Positions 4,425 to 23,959 of a stretch of 64,000 nt of DNA are shown one piece after another (the first letter of the stretch is position 1; every line of letters begins with the position of its first letter). Where the stretch lies: assembly GCA_902779645.1 (NCBI GenBank), contig CACZCH010000001.1, positions 1-64,000 on the forward strand, in the 5' to 3' direction. Both the position numbers and the translations under genes were made by a program. This DNA comes from an uncultured bacterium (GTDB taxonomy: Bacteria; Cyanobacteriota; Vampirovibrionia; Gastranaerophilales; Gastranaerophilaceae). Below the pieces are notes generated by a model. The model was not told where the DNA came from. It was given only the letters and a program-made list of their open reading frames with translations, and did not search any database.

Positions 4425-4496
4425 TCCTCAGTAGCTCAATGGCGGAGCAACCGGCTGTTAACCGGTAGGCTGTTGGTTCGAGTCCAACCTGGGGAG
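4425..4496 (+). tRNA. tRNA-Asn(GUU)
   Basis: 72-base cloverleaf. The acceptor is TCCTCAG / CTGGGGA. The anticodon stem CCGG / CCGG encloses loop CTGTTAA with anticodon GTT. The T arm is GTTGG-TTCGAGT-CCAAC. CCA is not encoded. The 3' half is partly duplicated, with 4 mismatches in 27, at 7228-7254 next to a second copy of the downstream sequence, which marks this gene as an insertion site. Confidence 0.93.
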
Positions 4497-4528
4497 TTTT
4501 TTCATGTCAAAAAGAGGGGTTTATCTCT

Positions 4529-4785
4529 GGGTTTTAATGGGACATTTGAAAAAATATTTTTCTGCCGTATTTCGGCTTTACGTTTGAATTACATCCACTT
4601 CCTAGTGGTTGACTGAAACTACTCCAAAAGTCACTTTTTCGTCCTGTATTTGGCCTCAAAATTCCGCTATAAATCCGCCCAAATTGCTATAATCCAAATA
4701 TATTGGTGCATTCCCCGCTGACACTTTCCGGACAAAAAGTCACTTTTGAAACTGCCCACTCCCAAACTCGGAAGCTAGTCGGAAG
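4529..4785. repeat. Element-end repeat, copy 1 (downstream of tRNA-Asn)
   Basis: About 257 bases, non-coding, highly similar to 7313-7570. It starts with GGGTTTTAATGGGAC and ends with CTCGGAAGCTAGTCGGAAG. The GTCGGAA motif here is the inverse of three TTCCGAC motifs found at the other end of the transposition operon (13132, 13155, 13185). It is best read as the non-transposase end of a Mu/Tn7-like element. The cargo following this copy is the serine protease gene at 4814. Confidence 0.7.
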
Positions 4786-4813
4786 ATAAAATAAAAACCT
4801 TTTAAAACCTTAA

Positions 4814-5755
4814 TTATTGATTTGCCTTAAGTAAAAATACTTTGTCATTTTGATTTTCAATAATCTTTAGTGCTGTTGTACCATAGAATGTTATCATACA
4901 TGCGTGATGAATACTTAAAACAAGATCTTGTAATTTTTGATCATTTTCCAAAGCGGTTACTTTTAAACCTAAATTTTTACAATATTCATTTGAGAGATGT
5001 CTTGAATGACTTTTTGTTAAATCATGATTACTAAGTTTATCTACAATTTTATTTATTTTGTCTTTCGTTTGTTCAGAATTATCGTCAGCAAACATGCATT
5101 TTTGTAGCCATTTTTTTGTAATTTCTTGAGACCAATTGATAGCATTTTGGCATTCGCCAATAAATGTAGGATTATATTTTGATATTATTTGAGCCCAAAC
5201 AAATTGCTTCGCTGGTTCCTCTTTAATTTCTCTTGTAGCAGTTTCTATCTCATTTAATATTGCGTATGCCGGTACCGTTCCAATATTTGGAAATGTAATT
5301 TGAGGATCTATAGGACCCAAACTTGATTGTTTTCCCATAAATATTTCTTTACAAGCACAAGCCATCATCGTTCCAGCAGACATTGCTAACTGAGGGATAA
5401 AAGCTCTAATATTACAATCAAATTTTTGATGAAGATAATCAACAATTGACTCTGTTGCAGCAATATCACCACCTGGAGTATGTAAAATTAAATCTAAACC
5501 CTTTGACACATCCATGTTGTGAATATTTGTCATAAAACCATTTTTATCAACATCATTTATTATTGTATCTTTTACATTCGATTTTTGTAACCAGGCAGAA
5601 TAATAAACTATAACATTTCTACCTGTATATTCCGAAAGTTCATTAATATATTGTTTTCTGTACTTATCATAGGGACTATATGGTAGATGTTGACCTTCTG
5701 GTACATTATTAATTTCGTGTTGTATATTTTCTATTATCTCTTTCCAGTCTGGCAT
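4814..5755 (-). CDS. ClpP-fold serine protease, SDH proteinase family
   Basis: 313 residues of the serine dehydrogenase proteinase/SppA-like ClpP fold, a membrane-associated or cytosolic protease group. Visible motifs are the oxyanion loop HTPGGDIAATES (about 92-103), the nucleophile region PQLAMSAGTMMA with Ser126, and SSLGPIDPQ (144-152), a typical follow-up motif. No signal peptide. The start overlaps the small gene at 5734 by 22 bases. Cargo position next to an element end suggests a role in a mobile defence or maintenance module, but the substrate is unknown. Confidence 0.8.
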   Translation of the reverse strand: MPDWKEIIENIQHEINNVPEGQHLPYSPYDKYRKQYINELSEYTGRNVIVYYSAWLQKSNVKDTIINDVDKNGFMTNIHNMDVSKGLDLILHTPGGDIAATESIVDYLHQKFDCNIRAFIPQLAMSAGTMMACACKEIFMGKQSSLGPIDPQITFPNIGTVPAYAILNEIETATREIKEEPAKQFVWAQIISKYNPTFIGECQNAINWSQEITKKWLQKCMFADDNSEQTKDKINKIVDKLSNHDLTKSHSRHLSNEYCKNLGLKVTALENDQKLQDLVLSIHHACMITFYGTTALKIIENQNDKVFLLKANQ

Positions 5756-5916
5756 TTATCTATCCATTCACTACCATTTGTTTGTATATCCCCCCTAACA
5801 ACTACTTCATGTTGAGGTGTATAATTATTTTGTACGACAATATACCCATTGTACAAGTAACTACAATTTGGATTATTTTTGATATCTACGATTTCATTAT
5901 ACATTTTTTTATACAT
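5734..5916 (-). CDS. Small protein coupled to the serine protease gene
   Basis: Not recognised. 60 residues from the ATG at 5916; a GTG at 5925 would add three residues, but GGAAG lies 8 bases before the ATG and favours it. The sequence is polar with three aromatic-rich segments and two cysteines. Its 3' end overlaps the protease start, an arrangement typical of translational coupling. It could be a protease partner or sensor, but only the context supports that. Confidence 0.55.
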   Translation of the reverse strand: MYKKMYNEIVDIKNNPNCSYLYNGYIVVQNNYTPQHEVVVRGDIQTNGSEWIDKCQTGKR

Positions 5917-5992
5917 AATATTCACTTCCGTAATTAATTTTATTCGTTCTTAAGCAAAAAAGCAATTAATCGAATGGCTGATTTTATAATAT

Positions 5993-6577
5993 TTAAACAT
6001 TTATTACAAAATTAATCAAAGCAATATAATCCCCTCTATCAGCTTCGCGTAAAGCTTCAATATACTGTGTTCTTAATTTCGAAATCTCTGTTAAATCACC
6101 AGAACCCCAATTCAAATCAGACAAACCAAATTTACGCATTAATAAATCTGCCATAAGACGGGAAATTCTTCCGTTACCGTTTGGGAATGGATGTATTTGA
6201 ACTAATCTGTGATGAAATCTTATAGCAATTTCTTTTTGGGGATAAGTATTATTTTCTATCCAATATTTAATATCATCAAAAAGCATTCTTAACTGTGGTT
6301 GAATCTGATAAGGAGCAACTCCAATATTTCTTTCTGTTGTTCTGAAACTTCCTGCCCATAGCCAAATTTCACCAAACATCTTTTTATGTAATGTTTTCAA
6401 AAAACTTTCGGATAAAATATCTTTTTTATTTGTCATAAGCCAAATTTCAGCTTCAGCAATTCCTGCTGTTTCCATTTCGTTTAATTCAGAACGATTAGTA
6501 ATCCATCCGGCTTTTAATCCTTGTTTTTCTTCTTCGGTAAGAGGAGTTGAATTATCATCTGTTTCAAATATGTTCAT
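5993..6577 (-). CDS. Fic-domain protein (mobile mystery protein B)
   Basis: 194 residues. The Fic active-site loop HPFPNGNGR is complete at 129-137, with His129 as the general base. A flap-like segment precedes it (about 78-92). Fic enzymes usually transfer AMP or other phosphate-containing groups onto target proteins. The overall form and the partner gene match the mobile mystery protein B family, found on plasmids and islands always next to protein A. The start lies 3 bases after the A gene stop with AGGAGG upstream. I see no clear classical inhibitory [S/T]xxxE[G/N] motif, so restraint may depend on partner A. Confidence 0.85.
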   Translation of the reverse strand: MNIFETDDNSTPLTEEEKQGLKAGWITNRSELNEMETAGIAEAEIWLMTNKKDILSESFLKTLHKKMFGEIWLWAGSFRTTERNIGVAPYQIQPQLRMLFDDIKYWIENNTYPQKEIAIRFHHRLVQIHPFPNGNGRISRLMADLLMRKFGLSDLNWGSGDLTEISKLRTQYIEALREADRGDYIALINFVINV

Positions 6578-6580
6578 ATC

Positions 6581-7036
6581 TTATTCCTCCTCTTCCCAAA
6601 GCTTTTTAGAATTCTTGTATAACAAATCTTTTACAATATCTTTTAACACATCTTCAAGTACATCTTTTTCTGCCAGTTGATTTTCAAGTCCCATATTTTT
6701 ATTTACTTTGCTTAGAATTTTCTTGGCTTTCTTTTGTGCTTGTTTATAAATAATATCATCAAACTTTTCCCTTGGAACAATAGCATAGACAAAATCGCAA
6801 TCCAAAGCATCCGCGATTCTTTCCATTGTAGATATTTTTATATTTTTTTCATTCTTCTCCATAGCAAAAACTCTCGGCTGAGATACCCCAATTCGTTTTG
6901 CAAATTGAGAAGTTGTCATGCCTAAAAAATCTCTTATAGTTTTTAACCAACCTTGAGGAGGAATTTCTATCATAACTTTTTTCAATGCGTCAAACTTCTT
7001 CTGGTAATTGCGTCTTAGTATTGTTTTGCTATCCAT
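6581..7036 (-). CDS. XRE-family regulator (mobile mystery protein A)
   Basis: 151 residues. The N-terminal half carries a helix-turn-helix (MTTSQFAKRIGVSQPRVFAM, about 40-60) preceded by the family phrase PPQGWLKTIRDFLG and followed by DALDCDFVYAIVP, all diagnostic of mobile mystery protein A. It is always paired with the Fic protein B and probably represses the pair and/or neutralises B. The C-terminal helix is longer and more charged than usual. First gene of the two-gene operon. Confidence 0.85.
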   Translation of the reverse strand: MDSKTILRRNYQKKFDALKKVMIEIPPQGWLKTIRDFLGMTTSQFAKRIGVSQPRVFAMEKNEKNIKISTMERIADALDCDFVYAIVPREKFDDIIYKQAQKKAKKILSKVNKNMGLENQLAEKDVLEDVLKDIVKDLLYKNSKKLWEEEE

Positions 7037-7227: not shown

Positions 7228-7254
7228 TAGTTCGTATCCAACCTGAGGAGTTTT
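7228..7254 (+). repeat. Degenerate copy of the tRNA-Asn 3' end (possible attachment site)
   Basis: 27 bases matching the T arm and acceptor end of tRNA-Asn (4470-4500) with four mismatches and the same trailing TTTT. As in the intact gene, it stands in front of a GGGTTTTAATGGGAC element-end repeat. It looks like a decayed target or attachment duplication left by insertion at the tRNA. Confidence 0.55.
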
Positions 7255-7312
7255 GTGAAAGTATGTATACCTGCATGGGTTTTGTGGGTGGGTTTTTGGG
7301 TGGTATATGGGT

Positions 7313-7570
7313 GGGTTTTAATGGGACATTTGAAAATATATTTTTCTGCCGGCTTTAGGCTTTACGTTTGAACTTTATCCCATTCCGAGTGGTTGACTGA
7401 AACTACTCCAAAAGTCACTTTTTCGTCCTATATTTGTCCTCAAAATTCCGCTATAAATCCTCGCAAATCGCTAAGATTTAAATATATTGCATTGTTTCCC
7501 GATGACACTTTCCGGACAAAAAGTCCGTTTTGAATTTACCCATTCCCAAACTCGGAAGCTAGTCGGAAGT
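7313..7570. repeat. Element-end repeat, copy 2
   Basis: About 258 bases similar to 4529-4785, again starting GGGTTTTAATGGGAC and ending with GTCGGAAG (7562-7569). A GT-rich run of degenerate GGGT units precedes it (7275-7315). It lies 60 bases from the stop of the DUF4435 gene and is the probable outer end of the transposon whose transposase end is at 13132-13191. Confidence 0.7.
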
Positions 7571-7628
7571 TGAAACATAAAAATCTTGTAAAATAGTAAA
7601 ATACATTTTTGTTCATTTTATATCAAAT

Positions 7629-8501
7629 TCATGTTTCAAATTTTTTTATCATTCCGTTAACAGCAGTCTCTAGTCTATTTATTACACTTGAAAAATCGGA
7701 GCATTTATTTCTGCAATTAGGACAATACTCGTACAATAACATATACAAGCTATCTTTTCCTAACTTCATTTTCCCTTTTTTTATTTGTGTATTTATAAAT
7801 GTAAATATTGAATAGGTTATAAAGTGACCATTCAAAAAATAAAAAAGATTTTTGTCATTAAATAAATTTTCAATATCATCCGTATTAATAATATTTATAT
7901 GATTATTTTCGATAAAATTATCAATTTTGTCAGTATCTGGTAAATAGTTATTCTTAGTAGTAAATTTTGCTATATTGCTATTACTTCCAAGAATGCTTAA
8001 TCCGTCAGGAAATATTTCTGGTTTATCTTCTTTTTTACAATCATAATATAACAATTTCTTAAGTCTTTCACTCAATTCTTTTTGAAAATCCAAACATAAT
8101 TGCCTATATTTATTTTCAGATGTTCGATTTATCTTTTTTATTGTTGCGGCTAAAGAATTATAACAAAACAAATAATTTTCTATGGAATGCCTTATTGTAA
8201 ATACAGCAAACGGATTTTGTTTATAGAGCTCTTTATCATGTATAATTTCATCATATTCGCTATCAATGATTGCAATAAAATCTTGTGAGTCACCATTTTC
8301 TATAAGATGCTTTATTATTTCTTTACACCCTTTTTGTGGAATACAGTTTATACTATATCCATTAGTATTAATACAGGTTGAAATAACTGCATCCCAAAAA
8401 GGGATATCCTCTTCTCCTTCAACTTCAATAGAAATTGTATTAGCTGATTTATCAAATAGTGGTACGCAATTTAAACCTTCAGGAGAATGTTCTAATGTCA
8501 T
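7629..8501 (-). CDS. DUF4435 TOPRIM-like protein, AriB-like (PARIS system)
   Basis: 290 residues. The DUF4435 fold is visible: VEGEEDIPFW (about 27-36) carries the first acidic residues of a TOPRIM centre, and AIIDSEYDEI (about 77-86) the second, followed by RHSIENYLF. In PARIS defence the DUF4435 subunit AriB is the toxic nuclease, held and released by the ATPase AriA. The start codon overlaps the ATPase stop by one base (TAATG), so the two are translated together. A CPNCRNKC metal-binding-like cluster lies near the C-terminus. Confidence 0.75.
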   Translation of the reverse strand: MTLEHSPEGLNCVPLFDKSANTISIEVEGEEDIPFWDAVISTCINTNGYSINCIPQKGCKEIIKHLIENGDSQDFIAIIDSEYDEIIHDKELYKQNPFAVFTIRHSIENYLFCYNSLAATIKKINRTSENKYRQLCLDFQKELSERLKKLLYYDCKKEDKPEIFPDGLSILGSNSNIAKFTTKNNYLPDTDKIDNFIENNHINIINTDDIENLFNDKNLFYFLNGHFITYSIFTFINTQIKKGKMKLGKDSLYMLLYEYCPNCRNKCSDFSSVINRLETAVNGMIKKFET

Positions 8502-9787
8502 TATTTTATTATATTCTCCATATTGATTATTTTATTTTTGTAATATGCCACAATTTCAGGAGAATGAGTAGCAATAATTAATTGAACATTTGGATTTAAT
8601 TGTAAAATACTTTTTACAATTGCTCTTTGCCAACTAATATGTAATGAGAGTTCTGGTTCGTCAATAATATAAATTTGTGGTTCATTTTTTTGCAATAAAG
8701 TTTCTAAAAGTAGAATTAATAATTGCTTTTCGCCTGATGACAATTTAGTAATTTCAATATCTTCATGCTTTTTATTTTCTATTTTTAATCTCCCTGCGAA
8801 TATAGAAACTTTTTTGTTAAAATGGCCTTCTCCTAAAAAATTATTTGCAACTTCAAGAAATTGATATACAGGAGTATTTATCTCTTGTTTTTTCTTATCT
8901 GATTCTTTAGATAATTCTATAGCTGTATCCAAAACATTATATACTGGCATTTGCATTATCTTATCAATTGTAATGCCTTTGTTTCTTTTAACTAAATTTT
9001 TAAATTCTTCATATGAATTTACGAAATCAGCACCTAACGTAAGGTCATTCCTCTTATTAAAACCTAGATTTTTTAATGCGCTGTTTAAATCATTTTTATT
9101 ATAATTGATTTTTAATATATCAGAATTTTTTCTTGAAGGGGCTTTTAGTAATGCTCTAAGAACGTCCATTTTAAATTCTTCAGATATTTTATTTGATTCA
9201 TAATTTAAAGTTTCTCTGTACTCGGCAAAATCAATCAATAGTTTTTTTATCCTTGTATCAATTGGATTAAATTCGGCATCTTCATCATCACTATATTGTC
9301 CGTATTTATAACTTTCTCCTGGATATCTGTTAAATAAATCTTTATCTATTTTCCTATATACAGTTATATTTTTTACAGGATTTATATTAATGGCTTCAAG
9401 TATCTTTTTTCTTGTTTCAATTAAATTTTGTCTAAATGGGCGCATATGAACTCTGTCAGATAACAATGAAAAATTTATTTCAAATTTATTGGCTCCAACC
9501 TTATATATAAAATTAAAACGCCCAATTTTTTCAATTTTAATAGTTTTATGTTTTTTAGTGTTGTAAAAATTTGCAAGGACTATTTTGGCAGATTTAAAAT
9601 TTATTTCATTCATATTATCAATATCAACAGACAAAATATAATTTATAAGATTTAATAATGTTGTTTTCCCTGAACCATTTGTCCCAATAAATAAATTAAT
9701 ATCTTTGTTAGTATTTAAATTTAAATTATATGAACCCCATAAACCAGATATTTCAATAGAATTTAAATAAAAACAATCTCTTGCCAT
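8501..9787 (-). CDS. AAA/ABC-type ATPase, AriA-like (PARIS system)
   Basis: 428 residues of the SMC/OLD-like ABC ATPase class. Walker A is GTNGSGKT (35-42), the ABC signature SSGEK (350-354), Walker B IYIIDEPE (373-379), and the H-loop THSPE (408-412). AriA assembles a scaffold that senses phage anti-restriction proteins and releases AriB. No TOPRIM nuclease domain is fused, unlike OLD proteins, which fits the two-gene PARIS form. AAAGGAG precedes the ATG. The gene starts 28 bases after the third transposition gene, on the same strand and without a terminator. Confidence 0.78.
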   Translation of the reverse strand: MARDCFYLNSIEISGLWGSYNLNLNTNKDINLFIGTNGSGKTTLLNLINYILSVDIDNMNEINFKSAKIVLANFYNTKKHKTIKIEKIGRFNFIYKVGANKFEINFSLLSDRVHMRPFRQNLIETRKKILEAININPVKNITVYRKIDKDLFNRYPGESYKYGQYSDDEDAEFNPIDTRIKKLLIDFAEYRETLNYESNKISEEFKMDVLRALLKAPSRKNSDILKINYNKNDLNSALKNLGFNKRNDLTLGADFVNSYEEFKNLVKRNKGITIDKIMQMPVYNVLDTAIELSKESDKKKQEINTPVYQFLEVANNFLGEGHFNKKVSIFAGRLKIENKKHEDIEITKLSSGEKQLLILLLETLLQKNEPQIYIIDEPELSLHISWQRAIVKSILQLNPNVQLIIATHSPEIVAYYKNKIINMENIIK

Positions 9788-9815
9788 GTTATGCCACTCC
9801 TTTTATTATAATTTA

Positions 9816-10475
9816 TCATGAAAAAATTTTAAATGTTTTAATTAAACCTAACAAACCTAAATAATCCTTCTCATCCCTCCAAATATGTTCTGCCACATGC
9901 TTCGCGAGGTTTTGTTTCATTTGGGAGTGGTTTATTGAACGGCGGAGGCGGGAGTAAAGGACTTTTATCCGTAAAGATTCTTCTTTTGTGTGCGGAAGTT
10001 TCTTGCGTTTTGTCTTTAGCGGTTTATCGACAACAAAAAGTTCGCCACCATACAGGTAAAAATAAACAGGTATGTCGTAAAACCTTCGCATCTTGGCAAT
10101 TTTCGGCTTTTGTTCAAAGTGCGTTTTAAAGGCGTTCAATTGCCGTTCATAAATTATCTGCCGAAAATGTTTATAAAAATTCTGCATTGTCGCATCCCCG
10201 ATATCCAAAAGAAAGCTCGCCTGTTTCGACTTCACTCCGGCACAAAAACACTTCGTTATCATCTCAATTTTTTCCTGCGAATGGAATTTGAAACAAAACG
10301 GCAGGGGTAAATTTCGCTCGGCTTTATATGAATAAATTTCGCCAACTAAATTCAGCTGTCCGTCCTTAACAAGTTCCTGTAAAACATCTTTTACCCCCTC
10401 TCCCATAATCGATTCAACGTCTTCAAGACTGAATGTTTCAAGCCTTTTTGCAAGTTTCAAAATCTTATTTTTCAT
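9816..10475 (-). CDS. Third protein of the Mu/Tn7-like transposition operon
   Basis: Family not recognised. 219 residues, basic, with a small N-terminal winged-helix-like part (ETFSLEDVESIMGEG, about 13-27) and a helical middle with CFCAGVKSKQASFLL, where a helix-turn-helix could lie. It overlaps the ATPase gene by 11 bases, so it belongs to the transposition operon. By position it could be a target-selection factor analogous to TniQ/TnsD, but I see no TniQ motif. GC content is higher than in the flanking cargo. Confidence 0.6.
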   Translation of the reverse strand: MKNKILKLAKRLETFSLEDVESIMGEGVKDVLQELVKDGQLNLVGEIYSYKAERNLPLPFCFKFHSQEKIEMITKCFCAGVKSKQASFLLDIGDATMQNFYKHFRQIIYERQLNAFKTHFEQKPKIAKMRRFYDIPVYFYLYGGELFVVDKPLKTKRKKLPHTKEESLRIKVLYSRLRRSINHSQMKQNLAKHVAEHIWRDEKDYLGLLGLIKTFKIFS

Positions 10476-11154
10476 TTAATATTCCCTCCAAAACCCTCAG
10501 AGTAATCGTTTTCAAATTGTTCATCTCGGCAACGTTTTCGACTTTATTTAAAAATTTTACAATCTGCCTAAACTGATTAAATTTCGCACTAACAAGCTCA
10601 AGCGCATCAGGTTCAAACTCGACTTCAGAAATCTCTGTCACGATTTTTGCCACATCTTCTTTATTAAAAGTTTCAAACTTCAATATCCCTAAAAGCCTGT
10701 CATAAATATGTTTATGACGTTTGAGTTTTGCCTCCGCAAGACTCATCCCGACAAGCACAACGGGAATCCCGATTTTGTCGTGCAAATCGCGCACAATCTC
10801 AATCGCAGACGAGTTATTCAAAAGAAAATCAACCTCATCCACGACCAAAACCTTTGGCCGCTCGCACAGTTTATCCTCAATCTGCTTGAATAAAAGCGAG
10901 GTCAGGTACATCGGCACATCATCAAGTTCTTCGACAATCTCGGTCAAAAGCCAACGTGCAGACATTTTGTGGTTACATCGCACATAAATCGCATCGTTAT
11001 TTGTAACCCACCACATAATTGTCTGCGATTTACCGAGTCCAAAATCGCCATACACAAGTGCCATCTTGGGCAGATTCGCCGGTGCGTTTTTGAGCGTATC
11101 CATCAAATCTACAAATCGTTTCACATTATGCGTTACAACAAATTTACGTTTCAT
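10465..11154 (-). CDS. MuB/TnsC-like AAA ATPase
   Basis: 229 residues from the ATG at 11154, chosen because it overlaps the transposase stop by 11 bases; an upstream in-frame start at 11214 would overlap much further. Walker A is GDFGLGKS (36-43) and Walker B VLVVDEVDF (about 102-110), with a C-terminal AAA lid. MuB/TnsC-type ATPases bind target DNA as filaments, recruit the transposase and protect against self-insertion. The gene sits between transposase and the 219-residue protein. Confidence 0.82.
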   Translation of the reverse strand: MKRKFVVTHNVKRFVDLMDTLKNAPANLPKMALVYGDFGLGKSQTIMWWVTNNDAIYVRCNHKMSARWLLTEIVEELDDVPMYLTSLLFKQIEDKLCERPKVLVVDEVDFLLNNSSAIEIVRDLHDKIGIPVVLVGMSLAEAKLKRHKHIYDRLLGILKFETFNKEDVAKIVTEISEVEFEPDALELVSAKFNQFRQIVKFLNKVENVAEMNNLKTITLRVLEGILNEK

Positions 11155-13111
11155 ATAGACCTCGATATTCCTCACTTTGCTTATATTCCGCAAGCCACGC
11201 CCTGTCATCTTCACAGGTGCAGCCGTTTTTCATCAGCCATTCAAACTTTTCATACTTATTCAAAAACACAGGTGCATTCATCTGAACTTCTCTTGGCGTC
11301 TGCTTTTTCGTTTTCACCGGTTTAACTTCGATTACATCTTGAACATCTTCTTCAATATTTTGCTCAATAAATTTTAAATCTACATTCGGCAAGAATTTCT
11401 GCAACTCTTTAATCGTCTTATTCTTAAGCCGTTTTTGTTTTTGAATTTTCTGTTTCAAATCCTCAACATCTTTGATATCGCCGAGATGATAAGCCATCGG
11501 ATGAACTTTGGTTACGCGTTTTGCGGTACACAAAAATTGATTTTTGACCGTGTAAACTTTAATCTCGGATAAATCAAAAAGCGAATAGCGAATCATCACC
11601 TGAGTTTTAAGCCCATACAATTTATCCGAATAATAAAAAGTCCCGAGGAACCTAATACCGTTTTGATAAATCGTCTTGACGTCAGCCGTCATCATCAAAT
11701 CGTCAAGCTGTGCCGTATCAATTTTGATTTTCGTTCGGTTTTCAAAAACTTCTGCTATTGTACGATTTTTATCATTAGGGCAAGGTTGAGTGTTCTTAAA
11801 CTCAAGCCATTTATCAACAAGCATTTTGACTTCATCAATCGTCGGGTAATAATTTGGCTTGAAATACTGCTTATGAAACTTCTCGTTGCGTTTAAAGTGT
11901 GCGGGTTTATTTTCAATACTTGAACCTGAATAAGTTGGCAAAAGCTTTTCAAAACTCTCCTGAAACTCTTTGAAAAATCGCTCAATGACTTTGGCTCTCG
12001 CGTTATATGGTCGAGCAAAAACCGTCTTAATCCCGAGCCGAGCATAAATCCCCTCAAATCCTGTTTCTTTAAAGTCCGTATTCACAAAATACTTTGCCTT
12101 AAACGCTCTCCCGTTATCCTGATATACGATTTTCGGGATATTTTGTAAATTGATTATCGCGTTACGAAGAGCTGACGCGATGCTTTGAGTATTTTCTTCA
12201 AGCATAATTTCGTATCCGACAAGTGCCGTCGATTTCCAATCCAAAAAGCCGATTAAAGTCGCCCGTGTGGGTTTGCCGGTAAACGGATTTTGCACTAAAA
12301 ATGATAGTTTATGTCCGTCTGCCACAAGCACATCACCGACATCAAGTTTTGAAATGTCACGCAAAATATATGGTTCAACGTTGTCCTTTAAGGCTTTTTC
12401 GCCATCCCGTGCCAACGTCCAAATGTCATAATGGTTATCACGAAACCAATTAGCATAGCGGCGAAATGTCACATCCTGAACATTTATCTGCCCCTCTTTT
12501 GACAAAATGTGCTTGGTTATTGAAATTGCTTTTCCGACACAAAACTTGTTCGGGTGCAGCAAAATTTTCAAAAACACCTGTTTTTCATAATCTGTTAAAG
12601 ACGTGCGAAATTCGGTCGCATACTCATATTTTGGCAGCAATAAATGATAATCCGTCGTATTTCCGAGCTTGCGTTTCCACCGCTCAACCGAGCCGATTGA
12701 AGTTTTACCAAGCACCTTAAAAATATGCGGATACAACATGCCTGTATTGTAGCTTTCAATAAACTCAATCCCGGCACGGGTTTTACCCTCAGGGTGATGT
12801 TTTCTGTATTTTTGCCACTCGCGAAGCAAATCCAAACGCGCCAAAGCGATTTCATTAACCTTTGTTGGAAGATTTTTGACAGGTAAAATAGGTATCAAAG
12901 CCGTTGATTCAGGCGTTATTTGTGTCTTTTGTTCAAAATATTTTTCCTGTAAATCTAGCTCAATACTTGATAACAGGATTTCAAAACTTTTTCCGCCTCT
13001 GACAATTATTTCGCGGGTGACATATTTATCACGCGACATCCGAATCGCCCGAGCGCTCACGCCTTTAAGGTCTGCTAATTCTTGAATTGATATGTATTTA
13101 TCTTTGTTCAT
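11144..13111 (-). CDS. Mu/TnsB-like DDE transposase
   Basis: 655 residues from the ATG at 13111; a longer frame from 13195 would run through the presumed end sites. An N-terminal helix-turn-helix (SIQELADLKGVSARAIR, about 8-24) is followed by the rve/RNase H catalytic core with Asp265 (VADG), Asp332 (YQDNG) and Glu377 (KVIERFF). That is a D-67-D-45-E spacing, very close to MuA. A Mu-transposase C-terminal beta-barrel follows (about 470-520) and a charged tail. It catalyses strand transfer together with the AAA protein. Distinctly higher GC than neighbours. Confidence 0.87.
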   Translation of the reverse strand: MNKDKYISIQELADLKGVSARAIRMSRDKYVTREIIVRGGKSFEILLSSIELDLQEKYFEQKTQITPESTALIPILPVKNLPTKVNEIALARLDLLREWQKYRKHHPEGKTRAGIEFIESYNTGMLYPHIFKVLGKTSIGSVERWKRKLGNTTDYHLLLPKYEYATEFRTSLTDYEKQVFLKILLHPNKFCVGKAISITKHILSKEGQINVQDVTFRRYANWFRDNHYDIWTLARDGEKALKDNVEPYILRDISKLDVGDVLVADGHKLSFLVQNPFTGKPTRATLIGFLDWKSTALVGYEIMLEENTQSIASALRNAIINLQNIPKIVYQDNGRAFKAKYFVNTDFKETGFEGIYARLGIKTVFARPYNARAKVIERFFKEFQESFEKLLPTYSGSSIENKPAHFKRNEKFHKQYFKPNYYPTIDEVKMLVDKWLEFKNTQPCPNDKNRTIAEVFENRTKIKIDTAQLDDLMMTADVKTIYQNGIRFLGTFYYSDKLYGLKTQVMIRYSLFDLSEIKVYTVKNQFLCTAKRVTKVHPMAYHLGDIKDVEDLKQKIQKQKRLKNKTIKELQKFLPNVDLKFIEQNIEEDVQDVIEVKPVKTKKQTPREVQMNAPVFLNKYEKFEWLMKNGCTCEDDRAWLAEYKQSEEYRGLYET

Positions 13112-13131
13112 CGTACCCACATCTATCACTC

Positions 13132-13191
13132 TTCCGACCTCAAATTGGAACTGTTTCCGACTAATATTTACCCCTTTTGTATCATTCCGAC
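13132..13191. repeat. Transposase-side end with three TTCCGAC sites
   Basis: TTCCGAC occurs at 13132-13138, 13155-13161 and 13185-13191, all in one orientation, just upstream of the transposase. The inverse GTCGGAA is present in the two far-end repeats (4778-4784, 7562-7568). Repeated sites in inverted orientation at the two ends are how MuA/TnsB-type transposases recognise their element. Confidence 0.6.
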
Positions 13192-13242
13192 ACAAAAATT
13201 TAAGGACTTGATGTTTCTCCGAAACAGAGTTATTGTGAGAAA

Positions 13243-13281
13243 GCCGTAAACGAGAAAAACTTGTTTTTACTCACTTACGGC
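13243..13281. promoter_or_regulatory. Long hairpin between transposase and XRE gene
   Basis: Outer arms GCCGTAA (13243-13249) and TTACGGC (13275-13281) enclose a second stem GAGAAAAAC / GTTTTTACTC with one bulge. It lies at the element boundary in the divergent promoter region. It may be a regulator-binding site or the terminal hairpin of an element; the role is not established. Confidence 0.4.
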
Positions 13282-13341
13282 GCCGAACAAAAGCCTGCGG
13301 GCACGCTTAGATGTGTTTCCCCAGAGTATTTCGGAGGTGTT

Positions 13342-13608
13342 ATGAAGAAAAAAGAGCTACAAAGCATTGATTATATTAAACAACGTGCCGATGAAAATTT
13401 GGCAAAAACAAAAAGCGTGTTTTTATATAGGCGGGAACTTGCGATACGGTTTGCTTTGCGGCAAAAAGAATTTACGCAAAAGAAGCTTGCCAAACGGCTC
13501 AAAATGACAGAAAGCTATATTTCAAAACTCATTACAGGCGAAAGATACAGCAAGGATTTTGAGTTTTTCGTAAGATACAACTTGGGGGTAGACTATTTTG
13601 GGATATAG
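13342..13608 (+). CDS. XRE-family transcriptional regulator
   Basis: 88 residues from the ATG at 13342, preceded at the correct distance by GGAGGT; the in-frame extension back to 13261 runs through a hairpin and has no ribosome site. The helix-turn-helix is KEFTQKKLAKRLKMTESYISKLITG (about 38-62), a lambda-Cro type. It is followed after 8 bases by the recombinase gene and probably controls that two-gene operon and possibly the divergent transposase. Confidence 0.8.
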   Translation: MKKKELQSIDYIKQRADENLAKTKSVFLYRRELAIRFALRQKEFTQKKLAKRLKMTESYISKLITGERYSKDFEFFVRYNLGVDYFGI

Positions 13609-13616: not shown

Positions 13617-14156
13617 ATGAATATTGTCCAACCGATAAGGAATAGAGAGGATATTGAAAAAATGAAGGCGGTGTTGAAACGCAAAAAGCGTGACCTTGTG
13701 CTTTTTATTTTCGGGATTAATTGCGGACTCAGGATTTCGGATATTTTGAAACTTGATGTAGGAGATGTTAAAGGCAGAGATTTTGTCGAAATCAAAGAGA
13801 AAAAGACGAAGAAAAATAAACGTTTCCCATTAAACCCGGAACTAAAAGTTGTGCTTGAAGATTTTGTAAAAGACCGCCCGGAAGACGAGCCGTTATTTAT
13901 TACACAACAAGGCAACAGGCTTGACCGAAACCAGGCTTACAGAATTATAAGCAGAGCTGCAAAACTTCTGAATATTCCCGACAGAATCGGAACACACTCG
14001 CTACGGAAAACGTTCGGTTATCACCACTACAAGCAATTTGATAACATTGAACTTTTGCAGAAGATTTTTAACCATTCATATTCAGCTATCACCCTCCGCT
14101 ACATCGGCATCGAACAGGATATTATTGATGAAAGTTATATGAATTTTTATTTGTAA
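13617..14156 (+). CDS. Tyrosine recombinase (short integrase)
   Basis: 179 residues: the catalytic domain alone, without the usual N-terminal SAM-like core-binding domain. Catalytic residues appear complete: Arg39 (GLRISD), a lysine in the beta-hairpin near 63, His127 and Arg130 (HSLR), His153 (FNHS) and Tyr162 (RYIGI). The enzyme would cut and rejoin DNA at an attachment site. GGAGGAAG precedes the ATG. It may mobilise the block to its right or the whole tRNA-Asn island; the att pair it would use is not identified. Confidence 0.85.
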   Translation: MNIVQPIRNREDIEKMKAVLKRKKRDLVLFIFGINCGLRISDILKLDVGDVKGRDFVEIKEKKTKKNKRFPLNPELKVVLEDFVKDRPEDEPLFITQQGNRLDRNQAYRIISRAAKLLNIPDRIGTHSLRKTFGYHHYKQFDNIELLQKIFNHSYSAITLRYIGIEQDIIDESYMNFYL

Positions 14157-14224
14157 AATCTGTTTCATATTTTACAAATTGTTATGTAAATGTTATTATG
14201 AACCTATCTTGGAGGATTTTTGGC

Positions 14225-15268
14225 ATGGCGGGATTTGGAATATGGTGCGAAGGAGATAAGTTAGTTAGTGGTACTCTATCTCCTTATGATATTCATTTTA
14301 ATCTTTGGCTTGATTATTGCAATAAAAAATCTGTACCAATGCTTGATATTGGTATAAAAATCAATTATGTTGAAACTTTACATCAAATATGTATTTATTT
14401 ACCCTATTTAATTAGTGTTAATGATATTAAAGATTTAGGAAAAATTATAGTATCTGATAAAAAAATCTTGGATTCTGTTTTTAATGAATCATATACATAT
14501 CAAGAATTACATGAATCAAAAAATTATTTAGTTAAAGATAAATCAGAAAAAGAACAATTTATTGTTTACGCACTCGATCCTAATGAAAAATCTGATATTT
14601 TGGTTGAACATTGTCTTAAGGGTACTGTTGTTGCCATAAATCTTCAAAATAGAGGTTTTGTAAATAATAGGAACTACTATTTTAGGTTAAGATTTACAGG
14701 AGAATGGTTAAATAAAATAATTGAACGGAAATCTAAAAATTTACTATTTGATAGTGTTTCAACAGAAAATACATTTATTGATTTTAGGTTAAATAATTGG
14801 AGAAGTTTTGATAATCCTTCTTTGGTTCAAAGATTACAACAAAAGTCTATCCCTCAATATTGTATTAGTAAAGTAAACTTCTTTTTAATGACTAATGGTG
14901 AAATTGATGTATATTCACTAAATCCTAAAAGTGAGCGAAAATTAGAAAATGATATATGGAAGGATTATATAGGTAAAAAGATTGATAATGTCATAATCGC
15001 AACACAATGGCAAGAAAAGAAGAAAGAGGGAGATAATAGTTGTATTGAGTCATTTAATGTCTATGCTCGTTTTAGGAAACAATGGTGCACTATTAGCCAA
15101 ATTCTTAAATATATAATGATTTTTTCTGTTATAAATGTGCTATATTCGTTACTGTATAACTTATTATTTTCAGATTCTAATATAATTATGCACTATATGA
15201 GAATTTTATTTTTTATTGTTATTGCTGGGGTTTACTTTATTTCCTTAAAAATTAAAGGAGATTGCTAA
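14225..15268 (+). CDS. Hypothetical protein with two C-terminal membrane helices
   Basis: Not recognised. 347 residues from the ATG at 14225 (GGAGG 9 bases upstream; an ATG at 14198 lies before that site). The first 285 residues are soluble and Asn/Lys-rich. The end holds two transmembrane helices (about 292-314 and 322-341). A soluble sensor-like part joined to a paired-helix membrane module is a common layout for membrane-damaging effectors of phage defence. The gene is 4 bases upstream of the PIN-GNAT gene and probably co-transcribed. Confidence 0.7.
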   Translation: MAGFGIWCEGDKLVSGTLSPYDIHFNLWLDYCNKKSVPMLDIGIKINYVETLHQICIYLPYLISVNDIKDLGKIIVSDKKILDSVFNESYTYQELHESKNYLVKDKSEKEQFIVYALDPNEKSDILVEHCLKGTVVAINLQNRGFVNNRNYYFRLRFTGEWLNKIIERKSKNLLFDSVSTENTFIDFRLNNWRSFDNPSLVQRLQQKSIPQYCISKVNFFLMTNGEIDVYSLNPKSERKLENDIWKDYIGKKIDNVIIATQWQEKKKEGDNSCIESFNVYARFRKQWCTISQILKYIMIFSVINVLYSLLYNLLFSDSNIIMHYMRILFFIVIAGVYFISLKIKGDC

Positions 15269-15272
15269 TCCA

Positions 15273-16775
15273 ATGAGAATATTGTTAGATACAAATATTT
15301 TAATCCAGAGGGAAAATAATCATATAATACCAGAAAACCTTGCTGAACTCATGAGATTGCTTAACGGTCTTGAAAATTGTTCTTTACATATTCATCCTTT
15401 AACAAAGCAAGAAATAATGAAAGATGGATATGATGAGAGAAAAAATGTTAATCTATCAAAATCAAATGCTTATTCTGTGTTAGAAAAAGTACCGAATTAT
15501 TTAGATGACGATAATTTCAAAAAATTATTACCAGAACCAAAATCAGAAAATGACATAGTAGATAATCAATTAATATATTGCATTGCTCGAAATATTTGTG
15601 ATTACCTTATAACACAAGACCAAGGTCTATTAAACAAGGCAAGTACTTTAGAAATTGAAAATGTCATAAACATAAATGAAGCAATAAATATTTTTAAGAA
15701 ATTTTATACTAATGTTGATATTCCTTTAGGGAACAATTTTGAAATAAAAAAAGTATTTGAATTGAATTATAACGATAAAATTTTTGATTCTTTAAAAAAT
15801 GCTTATATGGGGTTTGATAAATGGTGGAATAGCATACAAAACAGGGATACTTATGTATATTTTAATACCAATAATGATATAAATGCAATTTTAATTCCCA
15901 AGATTGAGCGTAATGAAATAATTTCTGAAAATCCGCTAATAAAGAAGGACAAAATACTAAAAATTTGTACTTTTAAGGTTGCGGAACATGCAAGAGGATT
16001 AAAACTTGGCGAAAAACTGATAAATCTTGCTATTAAATTTGCAGAAAGTAATGATTTAAGTGAAATCTATTTAAGTCATTACATTGAAGAAAATGACTAT
16101 TTAGTAAATTTAATAGAGCAGTTTGGATTTAAACATATAGGGAACAAAGGTGATAATGAAGCCATTTTTATCAAAAGTATTTATACTAATGAGAGCGTAA
16201 TAATAAATTCAAATGTTGACGCTTTAAATTTCGATAAAACATTTTATCCGGCATTTTATGATGGTAATCTCGTAAGAAAACATTTGGTTCCTATTCTACC
16301 CACATTTCATAAAAAACTATTCCCTGATAGTCATGCCGAAGTGCATCAATTAGAACTAAACCTATTTGAAAATAGTGAAGGTAATTGTATAAAAAAAGCA
16401 TATGTATGTAGGGCAAATACCACTAAAATAAACAAAGGTGATATTTTATTGTTTTATCAATCTAAAAAAAGAATGGCTTTAACTACTATAGGTACGGTTT
16501 TAAGTGTATATCCGAAAATGACTGATCCAGAAGAAGTTTTTAAATTAATCTCAAAAAGAACAGTATTTACTTTTGAAGAAATCACGAAATGGTGTCGAAA
16601 AGAACTTTTGGTAATATTATTCAATGAAAATTTTCATTTAAAACAAGAAATAAAGTTACCCGAATTATCAAAGTTTAATATCGAAGGTAATATATATTCT
16701 ATTAGAGAAATACAAGATGAACAGTATAGAAAAATAATAAAAGGGAACATAGATGAGCGTTTTACTATCCATTAA
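15273..16775 (+). CDS. PIN-GNAT-PUA-like three-domain fusion
   Basis: 500 residues. Domain 1 is a PIN ribonuclease (1-125) with LLDTNILI and Asp6, an acidic residue in TKQEIMKDG, and the pair in ENDIVDNQLIYC / LITQDQGLL. Domain 2 is a GNAT acyltransferase (about 165-305) with a degenerate acetyl-CoA loop ARGLKLGEKL. Domain 3 (about 320-500) contains INKGDILLFYQSKK, resembling EVE/ASCH-type PUA folds. PIN domains cut RNA, GNATs acylate, and PUA-like domains bind modified bases or RNA. The next gene, an ASCH protein, overlaps by 23 bases. Confidence 0.75.
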   Translation: MRILLDTNILIQRENNHIIPENLAELMRLLNGLENCSLHIHPLTKQEIMKDGYDERKNVNLSKSNAYSVLEKVPNYLDDDNFKKLLPEPKSENDIVDNQLIYCIARNICDYLITQDQGLLNKASTLEIENVININEAINIFKKFYTNVDIPLGNNFEIKKVFELNYNDKIFDSLKNAYMGFDKWWNSIQNRDTYVYFNTNNDINAILIPKIERNEIISENPLIKKDKILKICTFKVAEHARGLKLGEKLINLAIKFAESNDLSEIYLSHYIEENDYLVNLIEQFGFKHIGNKGDNEAIFIKSIYTNESVIINSNVDALNFDKTFYPAFYDGNLVRKHLVPILPTFHKKLFPDSHAEVHQLELNLFENSEGNCIKKAYVCRANTTKINKGDILLFYQSKKRMALTTIGTVLSVYPKMTDPEEVFKLISKRTVFTFEEITKWCRKELLVILFNENFHLKQEIKLPELSKFNIEGNIYSIREIQDEQYRKIIKGNIDERFTIH

Positions 16776-17154
16776 ACCTAAATATGTAGAAGAAATAGAA
16801 AATGGTTCAAAATTATACGAATTTAGAAAATCTATATTTAAAGAGCCAACCGAAGAAATATGGGTATACTCTTCTGCACCAATAAAAAGAATTGTAGGGA
16901 AAATATATGTAGATTCAATAATTGAAGACACCCCCGAAATGATATGGAAAACATGTAAGAAACATGCTGGAATAGAAAAAAAATCATTTTTTGAATATTT
17001 TAAAGGTAAAGATAAGGGTTATGCAATCGTGATCAAAAAATATGAGCCTTTTAAAAAACCGATTAATCCCTATCTTAAAAATAACAAATTTGTTCCTCCT
17101 CAATCATATGCATATCTTAGTAATGTTTTACCAAATGCAAAAGTTTTGGCATAA
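16753..17154 (+). CDS. ASCH-domain protein
   Basis: 133 residues. The ASCH signature GxKxxExR is exact near the start (GSKLYEFR, about 18-25), within a PUA-like beta barrel. ASCH proteins bind RNA or modified nucleotides; some hydrolyse modified cytidine. The gene overlaps the PIN-GNAT gene by 23 bases, so the two almost certainly act together. Its location immediately upstream of a type I restriction operon suggests an accessory defence or toxin-antitoxin function. Confidence 0.78.
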   Translation: MSVLLSIKPKYVEEIENGSKLYEFRKSIFKEPTEEIWVYSSAPIKRIVGKIYVDSIIEDTPEMIWKTCKKHAGIEKKSFFEYFKGKDKGYAIVIKKYEPFKKPINPYLKNNKFVPPQSYAYLSNVLPNAKVLA

Positions 17155-17224
17155 TAGTATCCAGCGAAAAGTAATAATATGTTCATGATAAGATAATTAT
17201 GTTAGGTCAAAAGATTGGTGTTTT

Positions 17225-19708
17225 ATGGTTAGTGAAAAAGAGGCAAAAGCTAGGGTTAAAATAAACAAATTATTGGAAGAAGCAAATTGGCGACTATTAG
17301 ATGATGAACATGGTCGTGCAAACGTAGATTTAGAATACACTACTAAAATAAAACGAGATGACAAGTTTAAGACTGGTTTATTGGATTATTTAATGCTTGA
17401 TTCAAAAGGTTTTCCCCTTTGTGTTCTTGAAGCAAAACGTGATGATGTAAATCCTTTATTTGCAAAAGAACAAGCTAGAGCATATGCAATGAGCCAAAAT
17501 ATCCGCTTTGTTATACTTTCAAATGGGAATATCCATTATCTTTGGGATATTGAAATCGGTAATCCCGAAATTATTACATCCATGCCTACTCAGGAATCTC
17601 TAGAACAAAGATTAGAATTTAAACCTAATACAAAATCTTTGCATTCTGAAAATATAACAAAAGAATACGTAGCATTAATGCAAAATCCTAATTTGTTACA
17701 GGAACCTGATTATATAAATGAAACAACAAGAGATAAATATTGTTTTAATAATGGTTATAGGTTATTAAGAGATTATCAAATCAATGCGATTAAAGCATTA
17801 CAAAAATCCGCAAAAGAAGGGAATAACCGTTTCTTATTTGAAATGGCGACAGGAACTGGTAAAACATTAACAGCTGCCGGAATTATAAAACTGTTCTTAA
17901 AAACTGGTAATGCGAAAAGAGTTTTATTTTTAGTTGATAGAATTGAACTTGAACGACAAGCCAAAAAGAATTTTGATGAATATTTAAAAGATTATATTTC
18001 TGTAGTCTATAAAGAATCTAAAAATGATTGGAAAAAAGCAGAAGTAGTTATTACAACAATACAAAGTCTTTTGGTTGATGATCGATATAAAAGATTATTT
18101 TCACCGACAGATTTTGACCTTTTGATTTCTGATGAATCCCATAGATGTATTGGTGGTAACTCAAGAGCCGTTTTTGAATATTTCATTGGTTATAAGCTGG
18201 GGTTAACAGCAACTCCAAAAGACTACATTAAAAATATTGATGTTAAAAAACTAAAATTTGAAGATCCAAAAGCATTAGAACGCAGAATTTTATTAGATAC
18301 CTATAAAACTTTTGGTTGTGAAAGTGGAATGCCAACCTTCAGATATAGCCTAATTGATGGCGTAAGAGACGGATATTTAATAAATCCATTAGTAGTAGAT
18401 GCGAGAACTGATATAACCACAGAATTATTATCTGAAAAAGGTTATTCTGTTGTTCAAATCACTGACGATGGTGAAGAAGTTGAAGAACAAATGTTTTCAA
18501 GGCAGTTTGAAAAACGCTTTTTCTCTGAAAATACAAATATACAATTCTGCAAAACCTTATTAGAAAACGGTTTAAAAGATCCGATATCAGGTGAATTCGG
18601 TAAAACCGTTGTATTTTGTGTAAGTCAAAACCACTGTGCAAAAATTACCCAAATCTTAAACACTATGGCTCATCAAATATGGCCAGGGAAATACAATTCT
18701 GATTTTGCTCAACAAGTAACATCTTGTGTCCCAACAGCACAGGAAATGACCGAACAATTCTCAAATAATAATTTATCGGGGACTTCAAGATTTTTGGATG
18801 ACTACAAAACAAGTAAAGCAAGAGTTTGTGTAACAGTTGGTATGATGACAACTGGCTATGATTGTCAAGACGTTTTAAATTTAGCCCTAATGAGACCAAT
18901 ATTTTCACCAACAGATTTTGTCCAAATAAAAGGTCGTGGAACACGCAAATATACTTTTAAATTCCCAACAACAAAGCCGACGGAATTTAAACAAAAAGAG
19001 CATTTTAAACTTTTTGATTTCTTTGCTAATTGTGAATATTTTGAAAATGATTTTAATTACGATGAAGAATTAAAATTGCCAAGAGTAGCATCGGGTAAAG
19101 GTGATGGCGGAGGCGAAACCCCACCGCCGATTGAAACTATTGAAATTTTTGATCCGGATAAACTTAAAGAATTAAAAGAAACAAAAATCGGTTTAGATGG
19201 AATGAAAATTGATAGAGAATTATTCCAACAATTCAAAGATACTGTAGTTGCGGATGATGATATTAAGAGTGCTGTAAACAATGAAGATTGGCAAAGAGCA
19301 GAAAATATTGCAAGAGAAAAATACGAAAATAAACCAAATTTGTTTGTTACTCTTGATAAATTGAGAAAGGCTGAAAATCTAGACCGGCGTTTATCTTGGA
19401 TAGAAGTTATACAAAGAGCATTTGGTTTGATTCCGAGATTTAAAAATCAAAATGAGTTATTGGAAGACGAGTGTGATAAATATATTTCAATTTACAAACC
19501 TGAATCAGAGTACGTTCCATATATTAAAAACTTTATTAAAGCCTATGTTACAAGTGGTGAATTTAGAAATATTATTGATATGAAAAAATATCAAGAATTG
19601 AATTTTTATGCAGGTTTTACAATGGAAGATTATAAAAGTTTGAATGGCTATAGAGATTCATTACCTGATTATATTAAGGATAATATTGCAATTAATAAAT
19701 TTATGTAA
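17225..19708 (+). CDS. hsdR: Type I restriction endonuclease, R subunit
   Basis: 827 residues, EcoEI-type layout. The N-terminal nuclease has Asp54 and the pair Glu69-x-Lys71 (LEAKRD). Superfamily 2 helicase motifs follow: Walker A ATGTGKT (208-214), DESH (303-306, in place of the more usual DECH/DEAH), LTATP (about 325) and the motif VI region QIKGRGTRKY. A C-terminal EcoEI-type domain completes it. The subunit translocates DNA and cleaves it when the complex meets unmethylated sites. It starts the operon hsdR-hsdMS-HEPN. Confidence 0.9.
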   Translation: MVSEKEAKARVKINKLLEEANWRLLDDEHGRANVDLEYTTKIKRDDKFKTGLLDYLMLDSKGFPLCVLEAKRDDVNPLFAKEQARAYAMSQNIRFVILSNGNIHYLWDIEIGNPEIITSMPTQESLEQRLEFKPNTKSLHSENITKEYVALMQNPNLLQEPDYINETTRDKYCFNNGYRLLRDYQINAIKALQKSAKEGNNRFLFEMATGTGKTLTAAGIIKLFLKTGNAKRVLFLVDRIELERQAKKNFDEYLKDYISVVYKESKNDWKKAEVVITTIQSLLVDDRYKRLFSPTDFDLLISDESHRCIGGNSRAVFEYFIGYKLGLTATPKDYIKNIDVKKLKFEDPKALERRILLDTYKTFGCESGMPTFRYSLIDGVRDGYLINPLVVDARTDITTELLSEKGYSVVQITDDGEEVEEQMFSRQFEKRFFSENTNIQFCKTLLENGLKDPISGEFGKTVVFCVSQNHCAKITQILNTMAHQIWPGKYNSDFAQQVTSCVPTAQEMTEQFSNNNLSGTSRFLDDYKTSKARVCVTVGMMTTGYDCQDVLNLALMRPIFSPTDFVQIKGRGTRKYTFKFPTTKPTEFKQKEHFKLFDFFANCEYFENDFNYDEELKLPRVASGKGDGGGETPPPIETIEIFDPDKLKELKETKIGLDGMKIDRELFQQFKDTVVADDDIKSAVNNEDWQRAENIAREKYENKPNLFVTLDKLRKAENLDRRLSWIEVIQRAFGLIPRFKNQNELLEDECDKYISIYKPESEYVPYIKNFIKAYVTSGEFRNIIDMKKYQELNFYAGFTMEDYKSLNGYRDSLPDYIKDNIAINKFM

Positions 19709-19723
19709 AAGAAGAGAGATAAA

Positions 19724-22222: not shown

Positions 22223-22976
22223 TGTAATATCTCTTGATACTGAATTGGACGATTTAAAAAGCTATCTACCACTAAATATGAAAAACTCATATTTTAGAAT
22301 AATGTTTGAAAACCTTATAGTAGTAGAAAAATCTGATTTCTATAATAATGCAGTTATTAATCTAACACATTTTTATAATTATATTTTACATTGCTTTCTC
22401 GTACAGATTTATTATTCAGAAGAAAATAGAGAATTGCTAAAATATTTACAAAAGACAACTGGGTCATTAAATAGTCGAGATAATAATAAAAAAATAAACC
22501 TTGAAGAACGATTTGATACTTCTTCTTTTTCTAATATTGAAAAAGATGCAATTAACTATTTTTTTCATATATTCAATTTTTGTGAGAACTCTCATTTGTG
22601 TCAAAAAAATCAAGCTATTTATGATTTACGCAATTCCGCAGCGCATCTTAATATGGATATAATCAATCATAGTAGATTCAACGATTTTGTTGAAAAGATT
22701 CAATATAATTTAAATGAATTATTGAAAAAAACTTATAAATCGACTAAAGAACTTATTTTCAGAGAATTAAAAGAAAATATTAAAAATGGTTTACTTATTG
22801 ATGATACAGACAGAATATCTGTGTTTGAAGAAATTAATTCTCTTTATTGTGTATCTCTTAATTTTTATAAACTGTTTTTAAAACACAATAAATTTGAAAA
22901 TGTACAACTAAATACCCCTTTATACCATATCAAAAATTTTATAGAAGAAGACTTAGGTTTGGAAAGAGAAAATTAG
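22215..22976 (+). CDS. HEPN-like protein in the restriction operon
   Basis: 253 residues, helical, without signal peptide. The segment YDLRNSAAHL contains RNSAAH (139-144), an exact Rx4H HEPN ribonuclease motif at the end of a long helical region, where HEPN active sites normally lie. HEPN proteins such as RloC and PrrC cut tRNA and are known partners of type I restriction systems. The start overlaps the hsdMS stop by 8 bases, so it is translationally coupled. The family assignment rests on the motif and helical context only. Confidence 0.55.
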   Translation: MSNVISLDTELDDLKSYLPLNMKNSYFRIMFENLIVVEKSDFYNNAVINLTHFYNYILHCFLVQIYYSEENRELLKYLQKTTGSLNSRDNNKKINLEERFDTSSFSNIEKDAINYFFHIFNFCENSHLCQKNQAIYDLRNSAAHLNMDIINHSRFNDFVEKIQYNLNELLKKTYKSTKELIFRELKENIKNGLLIDDTDRISVFEEINSLYCVSLNFYKLFLKHNKFENVQLNTPLYHIKNFIEEDLGLEREN

Positions 22977-23956: not shown

Positions 23957-23959
23957 ACT

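Follow-up and report, generated by a model that had tools for sequence, protein, structure and literature searches.

The window, the whole 64,000-nucleotide stretch analysed here, comes from a gut-dwelling relative of the Cyanobacteria (Gastranaerophilales) and carries a tRNA-Asn gene with transposition genes, a predicted PARIS defence pair and further cargo on its 3' side (Table 1). Five genes on the minus strand form a single run, tnsB, tnsC, a third transposition gene, an ABC-type ATPase gene and a DUF4435 gene, and all five open reading frames are present as the first-pass annotation described them. Divergent from tnsB are a regulator-like gene and a short tyrosine recombinase gene, beyond which lies a long second half with cargo and conserved landmarks.

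Table 1. Positions of the features discussed in the text, in the coordinates of the window.
Feature	Position	Strand	Evidence or remark
tRNA-Asn(gtt) gene, element at its 3' side	4425-4496	+	ARAGORN
Target-site duplication ATCTC, right-end side	4523-4527		within the tRNA-Asn terminator hairpin
Outer right end (RE A)	4528-4790	+	tip TGGGTTTTAATGGGACATTTG; 86% identical to RE B
Older cargo unit adjoining RE A	4814-7036	-	ClpP-fold SDH protease, Fic (mobile mystery protein B), HTH protein
Degenerate tRNA-Asn 3'-end copy just outside RE B	7230-7254	+	3 mismatches in 21; 0 expected by chance
Inner right end (RE B)	7312-7569	+	tip TGGGTTTTAATGGGACATTTG
AriB, predicted DUF4435 Toprim-like nuclease of PARIS	7629-8501	-	PADLOC AriB 9.1e-20; PF14491 7.3e-18
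AriA, predicted ABC-type ATPase of PARIS	8501-9787	-	PADLOC AriA 6.4e-45; PDB AriA 8ux9 6.2e-20
Third transposition gene, candidate target selector	9816-10475	-	N-terminal winged helix, unmatched C-terminal domain
tnsC, TnsC/TniB-like AAA+ ATPase	10465-11154	-	TniB PF05621 1.7e-8; TnsC V-K model 3.7e-10; ShTnsC 2e-5
tnsB, TnsB-like DDE transposase	11144-13111	-	rve and Mu-transpos_C; TnsB 7svw 2.6e-4; motifs DGH, QDNG, IERFF
Three TTCCGAC sites upstream of tnsB	13132-13191	+	internal; kept upstream of tnsB in the family
HTH_3 regulator-like gene, core, divergent from tnsB	13342-13608	+
Short tyrosine recombinase, 179 aa, core	13617-14156	+	catalytic domain only; PF00589 8.2e-25; R, HxxR, H, Y motifs
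Left cargo 1	14198-22976	+	356-aa protein, PDC-M11A/B pair, HsdR-like, fused HsdM-HsdS, 253-aa protein
Conserved small-gene module	23328-24176	+	order kept in L211, L216, L217, L219, L228, L232, L233, L235
DUF4186 gene	25253-25597	-	conserved landmark
hipBA-like pair	29234-30741	+	in relatives, the conserved landmark closest to the left end
Degenerate inner left-end copy	30725-30765 (about)	+	after hipA
Outer left end	32260-32312	+	two TTGTCA sites spaced by 21 nt; 19 nt between the tip and the inner edge of the last site
Target-site duplication ATCTC, left-end side	32313-32317

Transposition genes and a predicted PARIS pair

The defence pair had been placed inside a Mu/Tn7-like element, and profile searches bear out a TnsB/TnsC transposon: the core encodes both a TnsB-type DDE transposase and the TnsC/TniB-type AAA+ partner by which Tn7-like transposons are recognised. 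The overlap between the reading frames of tnsB and tnsC is 11 bases with the ATG of tnsC as start and 71 with an upstream GTG, and tnsC overlaps the third gene by 11 bases. TnsA, which is present in classic Tn7 and absent from Tn5053 and CAST V-K, was not detected among the Pfam matches of the core and adjacent ORFs. For this reason transposition would be expected to yield a cointegrate, which the short tyrosine recombinase may resolve. A palindrome at 13243-13281 was considered as the site of this recombinase; the 77-bp stretch to which it belongs is absent in about eight relatives, which weakens the proposal.

The third protein belongs to no family in Pfam, PADLOC or NCBIfam. In its AlphaFold model (pLDDT 85.5), residues 1-57 match winged-helix folds; this part alone was matched, and there was no fold match over the full length. 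Pfam found no TniQ in the protein and no Phage_int domain either in it or in its 93% identical relative, and a whole-genome search with PF06527 gave no match, though control genomes also gave none. The N-terminus is common across the family and the C-terminal part differs between groups. In the distant group the latter is the core-binding domain of a tyrosine recombinase, with no catalytic domain; in the group 2 relatives it matches Phage_int_SAM_3 (3.1e-9) and integrase core-binding folds, and at two loci (L083 and L084) the third gene encodes a full tyrosine recombinase.

The ATPase and DUF4435 genes, whose reading frames overlap by 1 base, had been proposed to encode PARIS. Both products score best with the AriA and AriB profile models, their gene order is the same, and neither clusters with OLD or an unrelated family, the contrary outcome that had been named beforehand. 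Among solved structures, AriA (8ux9) ranks first for the ATPase and retron/Septu PtuA-type ATPases follow (2e-11). The AriA motifs are intact (Walker A GTNGSGKT, signature LSSGE, Walker B IDEPE, and also THSPE). By profile match and gene order, we conclude that the two proteins are AriA and AriB.

In E. coli PARIS, a phage anti-restriction protein is sensed by AriA, which then sets AriB free to cut host tRNA, and growth stops (PMC12409363, PMC9122126). By analogy, the pair encoded here may likewise respond to an anti-restriction protein with AriB release, host tRNA cleavage and growth arrest. It has only about 30% identity to known members, and its AriB possesses the VEGEED motif together with DSE (DxE) rather than DxD as second Toprim motif; two other AriB-like proteins from the Gastranaerophilales order have DxD. 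A phmmer search of AriB against the PDB gave no match. These features would suit an AAA ATPase and DUF4435 system that is related to PARIS and has a different trigger or target, but the model scores of both subunits and the unchanged gene order make this an unlikely reading. AriB matches occur in 5 of 286 genomes of the order, and those checked do not adjoin tns genes. No AriB relatives were found in phages, plasmids or viral contigs, and PARIS is present in none of the other copies of the element.

Borders and composite structure of the element

The first-pass annotation confined the element to 7313-13191 (5.9 kb), with TTCCGAC sites at the transposase end and the inverse at the other. The sites are present where claimed (TTCCGAC at 13132, 13155 and 13185, the inverse at 7562), and the window holds 15 copies of TTCCGAC against 3.3 expected in shuffles, but they do not mark two ends. 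Right-end homology starts with TGGG at 4528 and 7312, and the cluster at about 13.13-13.19 kb was rejected as an end since it recurs upstream of tnsB across relatives, in the interior of the element. The element spans 27.8 kb, and position 7312 is an inner right end, inward of which the PARIS pair does lie. The right-end block of 260 nt that starts with TGGGTTTTAATGGGACATTTG occurs at 4528 and 7312, and a match was found in 12 of 65 genomes of the genus.

The outer borders lie in the tRNA-Asn terminator. Its halves are found at 4501-4527 and 32313-32329, the left arm ending with GGTTTATCTC at 4527 and the right arm beginning with ATCTCCTCTTTTTGACATG at 32313. In another genome (G005:C1), the terminator hairpin is unbroken and is followed by the same sequence as beyond 32313. 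The split terminator, the ATCTC on both sides and the whole hairpin in that genome therefore identify 4528-32312 as one insertion. Judged from these junctions, the outer element is 27,785 bp long and is flanked by a 5-bp duplication.

The outer left end was located from the duplication and the 19-nt spacing: inward from 32312, 19 nt are followed by two TGACA sites 21 nt apart. The same layout (two TTGTCA sites, 19 nt) is seen in two close relatives, L212/L232 and L213/L233, where it is followed by CTGAT; this pentamer also precedes the right ends of both, with a chance expectation of 0.01-0.04 per locus. The left ends of distant relatives share the 19/21 spacing, and exact duplications are present in two of them (TTAGT in G043, TTCAG in G008). 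The target-site duplications that had been proposed as a check across genomes were thus found, at 5 bp, in the window and in four relatives. L220/L235 has both ends and no matching duplication. The 19-nt left-end tip differs between copies and does not start with TG. The left-end sequence of the distant group, searched in the window with up to 7 edits, gave nothing convincing, nor did scanning the genome with the core of this sequence yield useful information. A left end directly after the tyrosine recombinase gene was rejected: relatives share landmarks further left, and homology stops at that point only where cargo begins.

The inner right end at 7312 and the decayed left end after hipA indicate a composite insertion, in which an older unit adjoins the outer right end. 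Homologues of its Fic/HTH pair in G043:C5 sit between the third gene and the right end. We consider it highly probable that the locus is a 27.8-kb composite TnsB-TnsC (broadly Tn7-like) transposon beside tRNA-Asn, with PARIS in its right cargo slot. Counting against this explanation are the two right ends and the second, decayed left end, which leave it ambiguous which unit moved last; the flanks of RE B and of the inner left end do not match each other. In such an element, TnsB would cut and join the ends at TTCCGAC- and TGACA-type sites.

The right cargo slot and its expression

We fetched 22 loci from named MAGs, mainly of Gastranaerophilales; in most of these loci the transposase is 94-98% identical, and a few are partial. 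In every locus that covers the region, homology to the window spans from the stop codon of the tyrosine recombinase (about 14157) to 9860-9883, within the last dozen codons of the third gene, and it resumes at the right end (7312-7583). By alignment, the right slot has a constant position, bounded by the third gene and the right end, with the cargo position known to about 20 bases. Elements that end between the third gene and the ATPase, the other contrary outcome named beforehand, were not seen; in relatives this place is taken by different cargo, after which the same right end follows.

In close relatives, the slot holds a retron-type RT with SLFN_AlbA_2, PD-T4-7, PDC-S19, SIR2, AbiO/Nhi, a restriction-like gene with PDC-S20, PDC-S45, PD-Lambda-2 with cll, or PDC-S21. 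In L210 and L212 it encodes proteins of 203-229 aa, and the L210 gene lacks a PADLOC match. The distant group carries IetAS, AbiE with SIR2 or Mrr, and Fic or kinase genes. As a control for defence enrichment, 10 genes that flank the element on the outside were compared with the PADLOC models; 2 of them gave matches below 1e-10, both to ATPase-type models, so a PADLOC match alone is weak evidence; most right-slot matches are far stronger.

The RT cassette is paired with Hachiman in L211 and with another left cargo in L217; this left cargo, of 1010- and 603-aa genes, accompanies the RT in L217 and PD-Lambda-2 in L219 and L228. Comparison of these loci shows that right and left cargo are exchanged independently of each other. 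Recombination that involves the conserved core on one side and the right end on the other could exchange the cassettes.

The first-pass annotation held that the defence genes are co-expressed with transposition. Indeed, AriA follows the third gene after a gap of 28 bases (9788-9815) in which a minus-strand terminator-like site is absent, both genes point the same way, and the SIR2 gene in L213 starts at the end of the third gene. These observations would fit PARIS as a functional part of the transposition operon, transcribed with tnsB, tnsC and the third gene, with defence coupled to transposition. Across close relatives, however, the 11 distinct types of right-slot cargo are divided in orientation: 6 run in the same direction as the transposition genes and 5 are convergent with them, so it is no rule that the cargo belongs to the operon. 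In addition, homology breaks off about 75-95 nt upstream of AriA, within the 3'-terminal part of the third gene, which indicates that the cassette brings its own upstream sequence. A TTTAAA-17-TATAAT match (10/12) is present there and is not beyond chance for the region. We thus judge functional coupling of this kind to be improbable; read-through from the transposition genes into PARIS is possible, and selection of the element through its putative cargo functions is plausible.

Insertion beside tRNA-Asn and relation to known systems

In the close family, most right ends face the 3' side of tRNA-Asn or a decayed remnant of a tRNA 3' end (11-12 of 16 in the first set). Seven of the newly fetched loci have tRNA-Asn within about 120 nt, and one more adjoins tRNA-Gln, directly behind which lies tRNA-Asn. 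Among copies, tRNA-Asn and the right end are about 20 to 140 nt apart; for the outer right end here the distance is 31 nt. In the distant group, tRNA-Asn adjacency was seen in 0 of 10 right ends. TnsC and the third protein may choose the region downstream of tRNA-Asn, the third protein guiding TnsC and TnsB.

More broadly, we tentatively propose, with slightly less than even confidence, that a TniQ-less TnsB-TnsC family of Gastranaerophilales homes to tRNA-Asn via a new selector, keeps an exchangeable defence slot at its right end and shuttles defence systems between gut genomes. This selector would combine a winged-helix N-terminus with a swappable C-terminal domain, derived in sister groups from tyrosine recombinases.

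The tRNA gene also brings to mind an integrase-type genomic island at the tRNA-Asn 3' end, moved by the tyrosine recombinase and carrying the TnsB/TnsC genes as cargo. Copies of the tRNA-Asn 3' end do adjoin inner right ends, the core encodes a tyrosine recombinase, and integrase genes occupy the same tRNA in other genomes. Yet such copies occur only at 4476 and 7230 and none is present at 32313, so that the two borders do not share a direct repeat of the tRNA 3' end, and the outer borders are a 5-bp duplication in the terminator. The recombinase lacks a core-binding domain, and distant members of the same layout reside away from tRNA genes and have 5-bp duplications. An island of this type is therefore quite improbable, a little more so than the operon reading. 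A Mu-like prophage remnant, to which the Mu-transpos_C domain, AAA ATPase and divergent HTH gene could point, is very improbable given the 5-bp-duplication borders, the defence cargo on both sides and a transposase found in no viral contig, and no phage structural genes were seen among the named ORFs.

The TnsB-TnsC transposon described here resembles the Tn7-like transposons of Benler et al. 2021 (PMC8649781), with mostly defence cargo and safe insertion sites downstream of tRNA genes. Compared with those elements, we found no TniQ/TnsD or TnsA here, and the cargo slot has a fixed position, with the third gene on one side and the right end on the other; PARIS does not appear in the passages of that paper that were consulted. 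TnsF of Tn6022 (Faure et al. 2023, PMC10293859) resembles the third gene of the sister groups, which likewise has a tyrosine-recombinase core-binding domain, whereas the third protein of the window has another C-terminal domain and is not accompanied by a detected TniQ. CAST I-D homes 30-33 nt downstream of tRNA-Leu (PMC10293859), a spacing comparable to that of the outer right end, although distances here vary among copies.

PARIS of P4-like satellites (PMC9122126, PMC12409363) shares both subunits, the gene order and a place in a mobile-element defence hotspot with the pair described here, but its carrier is a phage satellite rather than a transposon, the sequences are divergent and AriB has DxE here. 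The P2/P4 satellite hotspots (PMC9122126) are similarly one conserved locus with interchangeable defence cassettes; the locus in the window differs in being a transposon, not a prophage or satellite, and in having a second variable half on the left. We found no paper on such elements in Gastranaerophilales or on PARIS in a Tn7-like element, although this absence is not proof.

The element thus appears to combine known kinds anew: a Gastranaerophilales TnsB-TnsC family without detected TniQ, a slot for defence genes, a position beside tRNA-Asn and what may be a new target selector. The analysis places PARIS on a TnsB-TnsC transposon and maps a family whose defence-cargo position is known. The right slot invites searches for unknown defence genes, such as those of 203-229 aa, and the third protein can be tested as a candidate for a target selector of a new kind. 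The known trigger of PARIS is an inhibitor of type I restriction. With a type I restriction system encoded by the element as well, restriction may serve as the first line of defence and PARIS as the second.

Cargo on the two sides of the element

On the left side of the element, the tyrosine recombinase gene is closely followed by the candidate defence pair PDC-M11A/PDC-M11B and then by a type I restriction system. The latter includes a single 832-aa ORF (window 19724-22222) in which HsdM and HsdS are fused. In two close relatives, loci L210 and L212, the right slot between the third transposition gene and the right end carries a gene that, judged by its position, is a candidate for an unknown defence gene. 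A PADLOC search with the L210 copy returned no match.

Coordinates of features in the window and in related loci
Feature	Coordinates	Detail
PDC-M11A/PDC-M11B	window 15273-17154	4e-125 and 1.1e-47
Dispersed intergenic repeat family, TGTAGATTATCAGAGAGATTGAGAAAAGTACCCCCGGAAG...	window 32400-32584, 40140-40300, 51054-51613	
Right-slot gene	L210 13251-13862; L212 13174-13863	203-229 aa
Left-end tip	window 32294-32312	19 nt; compared with L232, L233, L235
Stretch between tnsB and the regulator	window 13232-13309	77 bp; holds a 39-nt palindrome, GCCGTAAACGAG...TTACGGC

Element ends and noncoding stretches

Across the window and the three compared loci, the left-end tip is constant in length and variable in sequence. 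The tips begin with TT or TA rather than TG, a pattern that is unusual among TnsB-type ends. Roughly half of the close relatives have the stretch between tnsB and the regulator; in the others it is missing as a clean gap.

Members of the repeat family also adjoin and lie within right ends. At window 40193 the repeat truncates a right-end relic, leaving 16 nt of the relic before the cut. Another right-end relic, in G008:C35, adjoins a 4712-aa ORF (L163 2-14140).

Distant relatives and the tRNA-Asn locus

Two elements of the more diverged group stand back to back in G008:C3, separated by 26 bp (L184 9109-9136). Loci L078, L080, L081 and L171 carry another variant of the third gene, the candidate target selector; it is 414-426 aa long and its match to the window protein is limited to residues ~53-202 of the latter.

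The tRNA-Asn gene beside the element is a hotspot across genomes. In other species (L122, L132, L135), a phage-type integrase lies after it, as do repeats of the tRNA 3' end with terminators.
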